Program-made: the position numbers and the translations under genes
Origin: a virus
DNA: 34,920 nt
Strand: one strand, 5' to 3'
IMG/VR virus record: IMGVR_UViG_3300042340_000051
Span: 1-34,920 of that record
The notes under the pieces: model-generated
Databases searched by the model: none
Told to the model about the DNA's origin: nothing
What the model saw: the letters and a program-made list of their open reading frames with translations, nothing else
Shown: positions 27,275-31,469 of the stretch, piece after piece
Layout: each line of letters starts with the position of its first letter
How positions within the stretch are numbered: position 1 is the first letter of the stretch

Positions 27275-27547
27275 ATGAATATTTTAGAAAAAGCAAACGA
27301 AATAGTAAATTTAAGATCAGAAGAAAAAGAAAGACAATATGGTAGTTTTTCAGAAGGAATGGTAAACGCAGCAAATTTATTTAACTGCTTAACAAATAAT
27401 AAATATAATATAAAACCAGAAGATATGTATATGTCAATAGTTGCATTAAAATTAAGCAGACAGGCATTTAATCATAAAGAAGACAATCTTCTAGACTGCA
27501 TCGCCTATTTAGCTGCACTTAATAACTATATAAATGAAAAAATATGA
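27275..27547 (+). CDS. Conserved small phage protein (DUF6378-like)
   Basis: 90 residues, all-helical: ILEKANEIVNLRSEEKERQYGS, then MYMSIVALKLSRQAFNHKEDNLLDCIAYLAALNNY. This pattern (a YGS/YGD segment, an ALKL-R helix, then DNLLD-AYLA) matches the small phage family I know as DUF6378, often found among nucleotide-metabolism genes and distantly reminiscent of MazG-type helices. It opens the AT-rich cassette and overlaps the next start by 4 bases. Confidence 0.6.
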   Translation: MNILEKANEIVNLRSEEKERQYGSFSEGMVNAANLFNCLTNNKYNIKPEDMYMSIVALKLSRQAFNHKEDNLLDCIAYLAALNNYINEKI

Positions 27548-28416
27548 AAACAGGTATTATAGGTATATTAAATAACCCAGCTACATCAATAAATTCGCAT
27601 TCTAGCGGTATGGTTAATATAGTAAAAAATTTATTTGATGCGGATGTATTATCGGAAAAAGATAATTGGGATAATTATGATCAATTAATAATTTACCATG
27701 GTCCTAATTTTAAAAAAGGTGTTTTTAATATTATAGGAGGCATTAATGAAGATGTAAAAAACAGATGCAATAAATTAATAAATTATAAAGGATTAATTAA
27801 GTCGTTGGATGGTTTTCAATTTATAGATTTTATTAATAAAAGAAAATTAAATTATTCATATAATAATTTATTTGAAGAAATAGAATTACCTGGAAAAAAT
27901 AATATAGTTATTGGAGATTCCCATTCAATATCGGCGTGGTTTAATAAAGAATATACAATAAAAAGAATTGATGGTAAAACATTGTATGGTTTTTTAAAAT
28001 TAAACTATGATTTATCAAATTATGATAAAAAAATTATATATTTTGGAAATATAGATATAAGATTTCATATATGTAGATTGAATAATCCAGAACTAGAACT
28101 AAATTTATTAATAGATAAATATTTAAATTATTGTTATAAATATAATTGTGAGATAGTTAATTTATTACCTATAGAATCTGAATCAAGAAAAATACCTGGA
28201 ACTGGATTATATAAAGGAGAAAAATATTTTGGATCAATACAACAGAGGCAGGAATTAGTTTATATATTCAATAATTCTATAAATAATTCAGGTTTAAAAA
28301 CATACAAGTGGCCAGAAAAATGGTATAACAATATAGACTATTATGAAAATAATGTTATGGAACCAAAGCAATCTGTACATATTAGACCAAAATATTATCA
28401 AAAAAATTTAATATGA
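27544..28416 (+). CDS. SGNH-hydrolase-like protein in the modification cassette
   Basis: 290 residues. IVIGDSHS (121-128) is the SGNH/GDSL block I with Ser126 as nucleophile candidate. IIYFGNIDIRFH (164-175) corresponds to the FGEIDxRxH block of a subgroup of SGNH proteins, and a C-terminal SVHIRP (His279) could supply the catalytic His. The N-terminal 110 residues form a separate alpha/beta region. SGNH enzymes hydrolyse or transfer acyl or other ester groups. Placed in front of the base-modification genes, it might add, remove or recycle a group on the modified base or its precursor; this is inference. No Walker A motif, so it is not the missing kinase. Confidence 0.6.
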   Translation: MKTGIIGILNNPATSINSHSSGMVNIVKNLFDADVLSEKDNWDNYDQLIIYHGPNFKKGVFNIIGGINEDVKNRCNKLINYKGLIKSLDGFQFIDFINKRKLNYSYNNLFEEIELPGKNNIVIGDSHSISAWFNKEYTIKRIDGKTLYGFLKLNYDLSNYDKKIIYFGNIDIRFHICRLNNPELELNLLIDKYLNYCYKYNCEIVNLLPIESESRKIPGTGLYKGEKYFGSIQQRQELVYIFNNSINNSGLKTYKWPEKWYNNIDYYENNVMEPKQSVHIRPKYYQKNLI

Positions 28417-29378
28417 ATATCAATCCTATAATATTAGATGCTTTAGACGAATACCATGAAAAGAGTTTATTAATGCAATCATTTTATTATGATAAAAATT
28501 GCATCATAAAATCAGAAGAAGAATTAAAATATTTGATCGACGATGATTTGATTTTTCATGTTCCTATATATGATATGCTAGATAGAAAATATGCTGCATT
28601 TTCTTCTTTTTTAGAAGCTATTGATAAAAAACAGAACGATCCAAAAGGAAATGGTATTAGATTTCAAGATCATCAAATTACAGAAGAAATAGATAAACTT
28701 ATGTTATTTTATTTATTTAGATTGTGTGGATCAGGTATTGATTATAAACCTGGTTCACATGGTTTTGGTAATTTTTGGATAGTTAATAGTATATTAAATA
28801 AAAGATACACAACATCCCATTGGTTAGAAGATTTACCACAAAATAAATTTAGTAATAATTCTGGTTATTTATTACCTCAATTTTCTATAGGTTTAAGAAA
28901 CTTTATATTAAAATATAGTGTTAAATTAGTTAATGAATTATACAGATATATAAAGGACGGTAATATTAATATTATAGATTTTGTAAATCATGGAAATAAA
29001 TATTTAAATGAACTAGGTTTTAAAAAACAAAAATTTGTTTTAAGTGCATTTGCCGCTGATATTGCTGAATATTTTCCTAATTATATTAGTAGAGAAAGTA
29101 TGATATTCCCAGGAACTAATGCTCAAAAATGTATAAAAGCAATATTTGGGAAATGTGATCATTTTGAGGCAATACAATTTTTGGCTAACAGGTATAATTC
29201 TATTCCATATAGTGTTGAAGATTCTAGATTATGCGATCCAGTAAGATATTTTTTAGATTATCAATCAAAGTATCATATAGCAAAAAATAATAATATAGTT
29301 TATAAAAACAATTCTAAATTAAAAAAAATATGGAACAATCAAGAATACCAAAATTTTCAATTACTTCTTCGCAAATAA
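28413..29378 (+). CDS. aGPT-Pplase / amino acid:DNA transferase candidate
   Basis: 321 residues, mostly helical. FRLCGSGIDYKPGSHGFGN (102-120) resembles the Gly-rich conserved core of alpha-glutamyl/putrescinyl-thymine pyrophosphorylases, which displace pyrophosphate from an activated 5-hydroxymethyl base in DNA and attach an amino acid or amine. The helix KQKFVLSAFAADIAEYFP (206-222), FPGTNAQKCI (232-241) and SRLCDPVRYFLDY (271-283) are further candidate conserved blocks. The neighbouring PLP enzyme and hydroxymethylase are what this role predicts. I assign it from memory of motif shape and strong context, not a search. Confidence 0.55.
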   Translation: MNINPIILDALDEYHEKSLLMQSFYYDKNCIIKSEEELKYLIDDDLIFHVPIYDMLDRKYAAFSSFLEAIDKKQNDPKGNGIRFQDHQITEEIDKLMLFYLFRLCGSGIDYKPGSHGFGNFWIVNSILNKRYTTSHWLEDLPQNKFSNNSGYLLPQFSIGLRNFILKYSVKLVNELYRYIKDGNINIIDFVNHGNKYLNELGFKKQKFVLSAFAADIAEYFPNYISRESMIFPGTNAQKCIKAIFGKCDHFEAIQFLANRYNSIPYSVEDSRLCDPVRYFLDYQSKYHIAKNNNIVYKNNSKLKKIWNNQEYQNFQLLLRK

Positions 29379-30187
29379 ATAAAGATAATATTTATACAAA
29401 AGAAGAATATCTTGAAATGGTTGATAATTTTGAGAGTAGTTTTGACGAACCAGTAGAAGAGAATTACAATGGTATTAGAGTAATTAGAGAAGATTTAATT
29501 GATGTTGGTTCAAAAGCTAGAGCTGGAGAGTATCTAATAGCTAATTGCAAATCAGATAAAATAGTATATGTTCAACCGAGATATGGTTTTGCTGGTATTT
29601 CTCTTACCAATTTATGTAAAAAATATAATAAGAAGTTAGTTTTGTTTATGCCATCTAGTAAAATTATATCTGAACATCAAGCCTATTGTATTGAGCAAGG
29701 TTGTGAATACTATTTTCATAGAATTGCGGCAATGCCTAATTTAAATAATATAGCTAAAAAGTGGTCTGAAGAAAATGACGCGTACTTTATTCCATTAGGT
29801 TTAAAACACCCTTTAGTTACGGCAATGATAATTAAAACTGCGTCAAAAATAAAAGAACCTAAAAGATTTTGGACAGCTATATCAACTGGTGTTTTAAATA
29901 GGGCATTACAAATAGCTTGGCCTAATTCAGAGGCTTGTGGTGTCGCCGTTTCTAGGAATATTAAAGATGGAGAAAAGGGAAGAGCAAATATAATTTCTCA
30001 TTATAGAGATTTTCATCAAAATTCATTAATATTGCCTCCATTTCCAAGCGCAAAAAATTATGATGCTAAAGTTTGGGAATATTTAAAAGATGGTGATCTA
30101 TTTTGGAATGTAGCAGGAGAAATAAAATCAAGTATAAATAAATTAAATATTAAATCACAAAAAAACTGGAAAAATGAAACTATCTAA
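29330..30187 (+). CDS. Fold-type-II PLP enzyme, ACC deaminase/Trp synthase-beta-like
   Basis: 285 residues. VIREDLIDVGSKARAGEYLI (51-70) carries the catalytic Lys62 in the GxKxR context of ACC deaminase and cysteine synthase-type enzymes. Alternating strand-helix units follow (KIVYVQPRYGFAGISL, LVLFMPSSKIISEHQ, FWTAISTGVLNRALQIAWP), where a Gly-rich loop binds the cofactor phosphate. In thymidine hypermodification, PLP enzymes decarboxylate or trim the amino acid attached to the base. The gene starts inside the previous one (49-base overlap). Confidence 0.7.
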   Translation: MEQSRIPKFSITSSQINKDNIYTKEEYLEMVDNFESSFDEPVEENYNGIRVIREDLIDVGSKARAGEYLIANCKSDKIVYVQPRYGFAGISLTNLCKKYNKKLVLFMPSSKIISEHQAYCIEQGCEYYFHRIAAMPNLNNIAKKWSEENDAYFIPLGLKHPLVTAMIIKTASKIKEPKRFWTAISTGVLNRALQIAWPNSEACGVAVSRNIKDGEKGRANIISHYRDFHQNSLILPPFPSAKNYDAKVWEYLKDGDLFWNVAGEIKSSINKLNIKSQKNWKNETI

Positions 30188-30476
30188 CGAATTTGATGAC
30201 ATCAGACAATGGGCAAAAGAAAGAGGAATCTATGAAAAAGGAGATCCTAAAACACAATTTTTAAAATTATTAGAAGAAACAGGCGAATTATCTAAATCTA
30301 TACTTAAATCAGATCAGGAAGAAATTATAGATGCTATTGGTGATTGCGTTGTTGTTCTTGTAAATTTATCAGAATTATGTAATTTAAATTTTGAGGATTG
30401 TGTTAATTCAGCATTTGATCAAATAAAAAATAGAAAAGGAGAAATGATAAATGGAACATTCGTCAAAAAAATATGA
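30174..30476 (+). CDS. MazG-type nucleotide pyrophosphohydrolase
   Basis: 100 residues. The metal site pattern EETGE (34-38) followed by EIIDAIGD (50-57) is the ExxE...ExxD motif of MazG all-alpha NTP pyrophosphohydrolases, which hydrolyse (d)NTPs to (d)NMP plus pyrophosphate. In phages with modified bases such enzymes can destroy the canonical dNTP so only the modified one is incorporated, and feed the resulting dNMP to the hydroxymethylase. It overlaps the PLP gene by 14 bases and the next gene by 26. Confidence 0.8.
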   Translation: MKLSNEFDDIRQWAKERGIYEKGDPKTQFLKLLEETGELSKSILKSDQEEIIDAIGDCVVVLVNLSELCNLNFEDCVNSAFDQIKNRKGEMINGTFVKKI

Positions 30477-30822
30477 TCCCAATTATTTTGGTTCTAAATT
30501 AAATTATTTTGTTTCTAATTATTGTAAAAAAACAATGGTTGTTAATAATATAGATATGATTATTAATGATTATGAAAATAAAATAATATCAATAATAGAA
30601 AGTAAACATGATAAAGAACCAGTAAGACAAGGCCAAAAATTAACATTAACAAAATTAAGACAAGTATTACCAAAGAAAGAAGATGGTTGGGTTATTAGAG
30701 TGTTAGTAATAAGAGGTAATTATCCTTATGACACGGCCACTTTAGAATCAATAGACGGTACTTATAAAAAACATGTTAATAAAAGCCAATTAATAGATTT
30801 TTTAAATGGTAAATCAATATAA
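30451..30822 (+). CDS. PD-(D/E)XK nuclease-like protein
   Basis: 123 residues. VVNNIDMIIND (30-40, Asp35) followed by KIISIIESKH (44-53, Glu50-Ser-Lys52) and GQKLTLTKLRQ is the Asp...Glu-x-Lys signature of PD-(D/E)XK nucleases. Similar compact phage proteins are known from other viruses, usually without function. In this cassette it could cut unmodified host DNA to supply precursors or discriminate against it. It overlaps the hydroxymethylase start by one base (TAATG). Confidence 0.6.
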   Translation: MEHSSKKYDPNYFGSKLNYFVSNYCKKTMVVNNIDMIINDYENKIISIIESKHDKEPVRQGQKLTLTKLRQVLPKKEDGWVIRVLVIRGNYPYDTATLESIDGTYKKHVNKSQLIDFLNGKSI

Positions 30823-31469
30823 TGTATTACAAAAAATTTGATAATGCTCAAGAAGCATTCGAGTATTACTATGATTTAATTAATAATTATGGTATTATAG
30901 TAAACAATACTAAAGTGCTTTATAATGTAGGGTTCGATATATTAAATCCAAATGATAATAATATAAGTACATCATGGAGAAAATGGAATAAAGATTACGC
31001 AGATTATGAGTGGGATTGGTATTTAAATGGAGATAATAATGCAGAAGAAATATCAAAAAAAGCAAAGATTTGGAAAAACATGATGGATGAAAATTGTAAT
31101 GTTAACTCAAATTATGGTTATCAATGGAGGAGAAATAATCAATTAAATAAAATTATTGAATTATTAAAAAATGATAAAACAACAAGAAAAGCCTCTATTT
31201 CATTATATGATGGAAAAGAAATAGATTTATACAAAAAAGATACAATATGTACTTATGCGATTAATTTTTATATCACAGATAATAAATTAAACATGCAAGC
31301 TTTAATGAGAAGCAATGATTTAGTATATGGTTTTTGTAATGATCAATATTGTTTTTCTAAATTGCAGCAACTTGTTGCAGATGAATTAAATATTGAAATA
31401 GGTGCGTATTTTCATTATTCTTGTAATATGCATATGTATGAAAAACATTATAAATTAAAAAATAAATAA
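30822..31469 (+). CDS. Thymidylate-synthase-family pyrimidine hydroxymethylase
   Basis: 215 residues. Catalytic Cys143 is in DTICTYAINFYI; the phosphate and substrate loop is RSNDLVYGFCND (163-174) and the ribose site is HMY (204-206). These match the TS superfamily. It is smaller than cellular thymidylate synthase and lacks its PCH and PFN forms, as do phage dUMP/dCMP hydroxymethylases. In a gap-free alignment Asp174 falls where thymidylate synthase has the dUMP-binding Asn, and T4 dCMP hydroxymethylase also has Asp there. The enzyme probably makes 5-hydroxymethyl-dCMP or -dUMP. Confidence 0.8.
   Translation: MYYKKFDNAQEAFEYYYDLINNYGIIVNNTKVLYNVGFDILNPNDNNISTSWRKWNKDYADYEWDWYLNGDNNAEEISKKAKIWKNMMDENCNVNSNYGYQWRRNNQLNKIIELLKNDKTTRKASISLYDGKEIDLYKKDTICTYAINFYITDNKLNMQALMRSNDLVYGFCNDQYCFSKLQQLVADELNIEIGAYFHYSCNMHMYEKHYKLKNK

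Follow-up and report, generated by a model that had tools for sequence, protein, structure and literature searches.

A candidate cassette for cytosine hypermodification with a predicted SGNH-type enzyme, common to many uncultured phages

Enzymatic hypermodification of phage DNA is exemplified by the Pseudomonas phage M6 cluster, which comprises an ADDT protein (gp51), a PALP protein (gp52), a radical SAM protein (gp53), a 5-hydroxymethyldeoxyuridine (5-hmdU) DNA kinase (gp54/gp55) and a thymidylate synthase (TS) family enzyme (gp58). In M6 and in phage phiW-14, attachment of a group to hydroxymethyluracil is preceded by activation of this base through (pyro)phosphorylation (PMC6449724, PMC5977210). 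The T4-type hydroxymethylcytosine pathway, in contrast, pairs the dCMP hydroxymethylase of gene 42 with glycosyltransferases. Here we describe a block of genes that shares features with both, at positions 27,275-31,469 of a 34,920-base virus record (IMGVR_UViG_3300042340_000051; the window below), which has no noted end repeats and is possibly a fragment. The block reads DUF6378–SGNH–aGPT-like–PALP–MazG–TS on the plus strand, with genes that overlap or abut. As in M6, a predicted aGPT-superfamily gene is followed by a PALP gene of the same PHROG (the gp51-gp52 order), with a TS-family hydroxymethylase nearby. In contrast to M6, this hydroxymethylase appears to be of the dCMP type, no kinase or HMUDK_hel protein was found, the aGPT-like protein escapes the ADDT and HMUDK_hel profiles, and SGNH and DUF6378 proteins are added. 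With T4 the locus shares a dCMP-type hydroxymethylase carrying the diagnostic Asp, together with pool enzymes (MazG or dUTPase_2; among relatives also dCMP deaminase in 46 loci and dUTPase in 35), whereas a glucosyltransferase is lacking from the window cassette, which has the aGPT-like, PALP and SGNH enzymes instead.

Other described systems resemble the locus in part. Phage cassettes recovered by MetaGPA likewise come from uncultured phages and combine an Asp-type TS-family enzyme with genes of the PRA-PH/MazG type and for dCMP deaminase, but their decorating enzyme is a 5-hydroxymethylcytosine (5hmC) carbamoyltransferase (PMC8670742), and none is present in the window cassette. The CmoX/CmoY system also places an amino acid on cytosine in phage DNA, forming 5-carboxymethylcytosine-glycine, although it does so by means of a methyltransferase homolog and an amide ligase that are unrelated to the genes described here (PMC12783734). 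A literature search, which did not extend to the main hypermodification reviews, found no description of this gene set; the view of an earlier, sequence-only note on this DNA, that no described pathway corresponds to the full set, was borne out.

That note had listed six overlapping genes, and all six open reading frames were confirmed at their positions, with neighbors overlapping or abutting by 1 to 49 bases. The inventory was incomplete, as the true start of the block lies one gene upstream of the SGNH gene. This additional gene (27275-27547) encodes a DUF6378 protein of 90 amino acids (Pfam PF19905, 45 bits) and shares four bases with the SGNH gene. Homologs of DUF6378 occur in 67 of 81 group-1 and 48 of 61 group-2 loci, mostly adjoining the SGNH gene, and DUF6378 is a core gene of the cassette.

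The two groups derive from independent scans of viral contigs, seeded with the aGPT-like protein (group 1; 164 relatives, of which 80 were kept) or with PALP (group 2). SGNH, aGPT-like and PALP genes follow each other in the same order on one strand in 74 of the 80 group-1 loci, and the order is kept in 60/69 loci of the PALP-seeded scan, which reached large T4-like phage contigs of up to 256 kb. As two differently seeded scans agree in this way, the linkage goes beyond chance. In a third set, from metagenome-assembled genome (MAG) bins, these parts recur in shuffled order, and they therefore travel together independently of their order. When bacterial genomes were searched, the aGPT-like protein gave no match and PALP matched only six MAG contigs that resemble mis-binned phage; no relative of the aGPT-like protein was found in cultured phages. 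The gene set is common to many uncultured phages.

The target base is indicated by the hydroxymethylase (30822-31469, 215 amino acids), which belongs to the TS family in Pfam (E 6e-25) and has T4 dCMP hydroxymethylase (1b49) as its best PDB profile match (E 2e-33). At the position that specifies the base, Asn177 (E. coli TS numbering) selects dUMP and Asp177 selects dCMP, and Asp is the residue found in uncultured phages whose cytosine is modified (PMC8670742). D174 of the window enzyme aligns to the T4 Asp (T4 D179, E. coli TS N177), and this residue and the catalytic Cys143 are present in 39/39 aligned relatives. Asp is also found in the group-2, MAG-binned and Aeromonas phage 44RR and 25 enzymes, whereas Asn takes its place in M6 and P26218, both of which have thymidine-type cassettes. 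In addition, five cassette-bearing relatives encode a second, canonical thymidylate synthase with Asn. By its sequence the enzyme is of the dCMP hydroxymethylase type, like T4 gp42, and taken together these observations point to cytosine as the modified base, not thymine, as the earlier note had proposed. In a broad sense, we consider it probable that the cassette performs cytosine hypermodification.

The protein encoded at 28413-29378 (321 amino acids) gave no match by sequence in Pfam (a noise match at E 0.05 aside), PHROG, NCBIfam or PDB. Its AlphaFold model (predicted local distance difference test, pLDDT, 89.6), however, matched an ADDT-annotated protein in a BFVD structure search (E 6e-10, template modeling (TM) score 0.74), as well as a second ADDT protein, the phiW-14 HMUDK_hel protein (prob 0.97) and a protein of aGPT-Pplase clade 1 (prob 0.93). 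Matches ranked below this set, which spans prob 0.93-1.00, have prob 0.4 or less. A fold search of the model against PDB gave nothing significant, the top match being a DNA glycosylase at E 1.7. The protein also carries the motifs G-T/P-N/G-A and E/D-x3-C, in the order seen in HMUDK_hel and in 44RR, though both are short and chosen by eye; ADDT shows the E-x3-C motif only, without the glycine-alanine motif. As links by sequence profile are absent, assignment to the aGPT superfamily, with its shared all-helical fold, is based on predicted structure and these motifs. The earlier note had let its reading hinge on a structural relation of this protein to aGPT-Pplases, and such a relation was found. 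The group-2 homologs are far more diverged (21-30% identity by tblastn), yet belong to the same family (hhalign E 2e-29). In 27 group-2 loci, among them L118 (4923-5978), the aGPT and PALP genes are separated by a gene for a second, diverged aGPT-type paralog of about 360 amino acids, which has GTGH and E-x3-C motifs and aligns to the window family with hhalign prob 64 and E 6e-5.

The PLP (pyridoxal phosphate) enzyme of fold type II (29330-30187, 285 amino acids) matches phrog_7093 (E 2e-38), the PHROG that also holds M6 gp52, and comparison with gp52 by BLASTP and hhalign agrees with this link. Its own Pfam PALP score (15.4 bits) is under the 35-bit cut-off, which relatives in the family pass. 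The Schiff-base lysine K62 and the glycine-loop residue G187 are conserved in 13/13 members, including M6 gp52. A sequence search of PDB with the aGPT-like, SGNH and PALP profiles gave no match. In 13 group-2 loci (L123:5309-5977 and 12 others), a LOG/SLOG-type protein of the 'lysine decarboxylase' family (Pfam E 3e-31) is encoded between the aGPT-like genes and PALP.

The product of the gene at 27544-28416 (290 amino acids) is predicted to adopt an SGNH/GDSL-like fold with intact catalytic residues. Its AlphaFold model (pLDDT 92) has as PDB fold matches GDSL/SGNH esterases and the peptidoglycan O-acetyltransferase PatB (prob 1.00, E ~3e-4 to 5e-3), and S126, N169, D171, E211 and H279 are shared by all 20 of a diverse set of members, including those of Aeromonas phages, with Gly168 mostly kept. 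The family also forms the N-terminal domain of a 795-amino-acid protein of Aeromonas phage 44RR2.8t (44RR; hhalign E 8e-46; L084:5001-7388, record 44RR2.8t.2) and is likewise fused in UP87 (~800 amino acids; L093:2965-5382). The C-terminal region of these fusions (795-805 amino acids, phrog_17781) has a weak HMUDK_hel match that is below the cut-off (E 0.002-0.004) and the same two motifs as the aGPT-like protein. These phages also possess a dCMP-type hydroxymethylase, but differ from the window in having SGNH fused in one protein, no detected PALP and a Na+:solute symporter gene adjoining the fusion gene, as seen in 44RR. The fusion supports joint action of SGNH and aGPT-type domains on the same base.

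Some 5-hmdU kinases have a comparable layout, in which a kinase is joined to a helical domain. By analogy with this layout, the fusion suggests that SGNH may take the place of the kinase. The Pfam models for 5-hmdU DNA kinase (PF18748), HMUDK_hel (PF18723) and ADDT matched none of 20 cassette records, which include contigs of 136 and 162 kb, while in the positive controls the kinase model matched M6 (1e-19) and the HMUDK_hel and ADDT models matched both M6 and phiW-14. Some of these records could be fragments, so that the kinase is probably, though not certainly, absent from the cassette phages, and the activation step that the earlier note had drawn from known pathways has no detectable counterpart in these records.

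From these parts a route can be proposed. The TS-family enzyme would convert dCMP to 5-hydroxymethyl-dCMP, a step strongly supported by sequence, while MazG (dUTPase_2 in relatives) would help to remove the normal nucleotide. Hydroxymethylcytosine would then be incorporated at replication, by analogy with T4. The all-helical protein of the aGPT superfamily may flip the base and transfer an amino acid or amine to the 5-methylene carbon, after which the PALP-like enzyme, as a relative of M6 gp52, could decarboxylate or otherwise trim the attached group. The SGNH-like enzyme would act at the oxygen of the hydroxymethyl group; most plausibly it would form an acyl ester, which leaves more readily and would stand in for the missing kinase. 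Alternatively, it might remove or add an acyl group at the end. We lean slightly towards this route as a whole, that is 5hmC synthesis, incorporation, transfer, trimming and a role for SGNH at the hydroxymethyl group. That SGNH is the activator of this group is a tentative suggestion, more doubtful than not. Still more speculative is the full kinase-free version, in which SGNH esterifies 5hmC and the aGPT-superfamily transferase displaces the ester to yield a cytosine bearing an amino acid or amine, a new base made by a new activation chemistry. The final base may be new, and the product would shield the phage DNA from restriction and other bacterial defenses.

Several observations weigh against this proposal. 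Alignment of the aGPT-like family with ADDT and HMUDK_hel by hhalign gave no signal, and the Pfam models for ADDT (PF18724) and HMUDK_hel, which detect M6 and phiW-14, miss the protein. The SGNH fold matches have modest TM scores of about 0.4-0.5. A kinase could lie outside the records, as the window and many others are fragments. The chemistry of the pathway is inferred, and the trimming step appeals to a presumed function of M6 gp52. Moreover, SGNH relatives occur without aGPT or PALP in phages of the Aeromonas phage 25 type, where SGNH stands beside a UDP-galactopyranose mutase gene; its role may thus be more general, with no requirement for the aGPT step.

The last observation bears on a different reading, in which the final base is an O-linked hydroxymethylcytosine (ester or sugar) that SGNH decorates or edits, and PALP and the aGPT-like protein supply or place the group without direct amino-acid transfer. 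SGNH is found more widely than any other part, its structural relatives include the O-acetyltransferase PatB, and the mutase accompanies it in phage 25, without PALP, and in six group-2 loci. However, glycosyltransferase and sugar genes are missing from the surroundings of most cassettes, and transfer followed by trimming accounts better for the conserved coupling of aGPT and PALP, so that we regard an O-linked product as unlikely. Thymine hypermodification of the M6/ViI type, through 5-hydroxymethyl-dUMP, kinase activation, amino-acid transfer and PLP-dependent trimming, would account for the gp51-gp52 order of the aGPT-superfamily/PALP pair and for the membership of PALP in phrog_7093, but is hard to reconcile with the Asp that replaces Asn in the hydroxymethylase of all relatives and with the lack of kinase, HMUDK_hel and ADDT matches in the 20 cassette records; we judge it very improbable. 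We give even less credence to the idea that unmodified DNA is attacked by the aGPT-like protein, as a nuclease resembling DNA glycosylases or as a DNA-binding factor, and that the cassette builds nothing beyond plain hydroxymethylcytosine. Folds of the aGPT type do resemble helix-hairpin-helix glycosylases, in keeping with the weak top match in PDB, yet the strong and specific structural matches are to ADDT and HMUDK_hel proteins, and this idea leaves the conserved PALP and SGNH partners unexplained.

If the transfer route on hydroxymethylcytosine is correct, amino-acid-type base hypermodification would be extended from thymine to hydroxymethylcytosine, and SGNH proteins would be an added enzyme class in phage DNA modification. 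The product of this widespread gene set could be read by nucleoside mass spectrometry. Unexplained bases of some Aeromonas relatives of the T-even phages were listed in a 2021 study (PMC8056088), and for the cultured Aeromonas T4-like phages that carry it, the SGNH-aGPT-like fusion would be a candidate for the enzyme behind their unexplained base chemistry. DNA with such bases would evade many restriction enzymes, and the enzymes could yield new tools for tagging 5hmC.

Overall, the earlier reading of the locus as a hypermodification cassette is supported for the aGPT-superfamily protein (by predicted structure), the fold-type-II PLP enzyme, MazG, the TS-family hydroxymethylase and the SGNH-like protein, but not for the putative nuclease it had included. 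The small protein at 30451-30822 is limited to the window and three close relatives (4/81 cassettes). A D-x11-ESK pattern is kept in all four homologs and might indicate PD-(D/E)XK, although it is a motif-like pattern only, with no library match. As it occurs in four genomes only, we consider it accessory. The MazG protein (30174-30476, 100 amino acids) scores 33.2 bits in Pfam (cut-off 22) and is present in 36/81 group-1 loci, with dUTPase_2 in its place in group 2; it is a candidate pool enzyme of the dCTPase type. DUF6378 was considered as a MazG-type enzyme, but hhalign against MazG revealed no relation.

Around the SGNH relatives, the UDP-galactopyranose mutase gene adjoins SGNH in Tulanevirus phages (Aeromonas phage 25, L091:776-4047) and in six group-2 contigs (e.g., L128:8025-9131), which hints at sugar decoration in some lineages. 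A lone SGNH-family relative lies beside ribonucleotide reductase genes in Tenacibaculum phage PTm1 (L090:8566-9585), a genome without detectable PALP; a search for PALP in the Aeromonas, Tenacibaculum and Bacteroides phage records did not find it. Elsewhere, Erythrobacter phage R6L (L082, 8001-8672) and Microcystis phage Mae-JY30 (L083, 7117-8705) encode PALP-family proteins whose annotation is DNA modification methylase, in the latter after genes annotated as ParB/sulfiredoxin, and these PALP-family genes possibly belong to a separate modification system.

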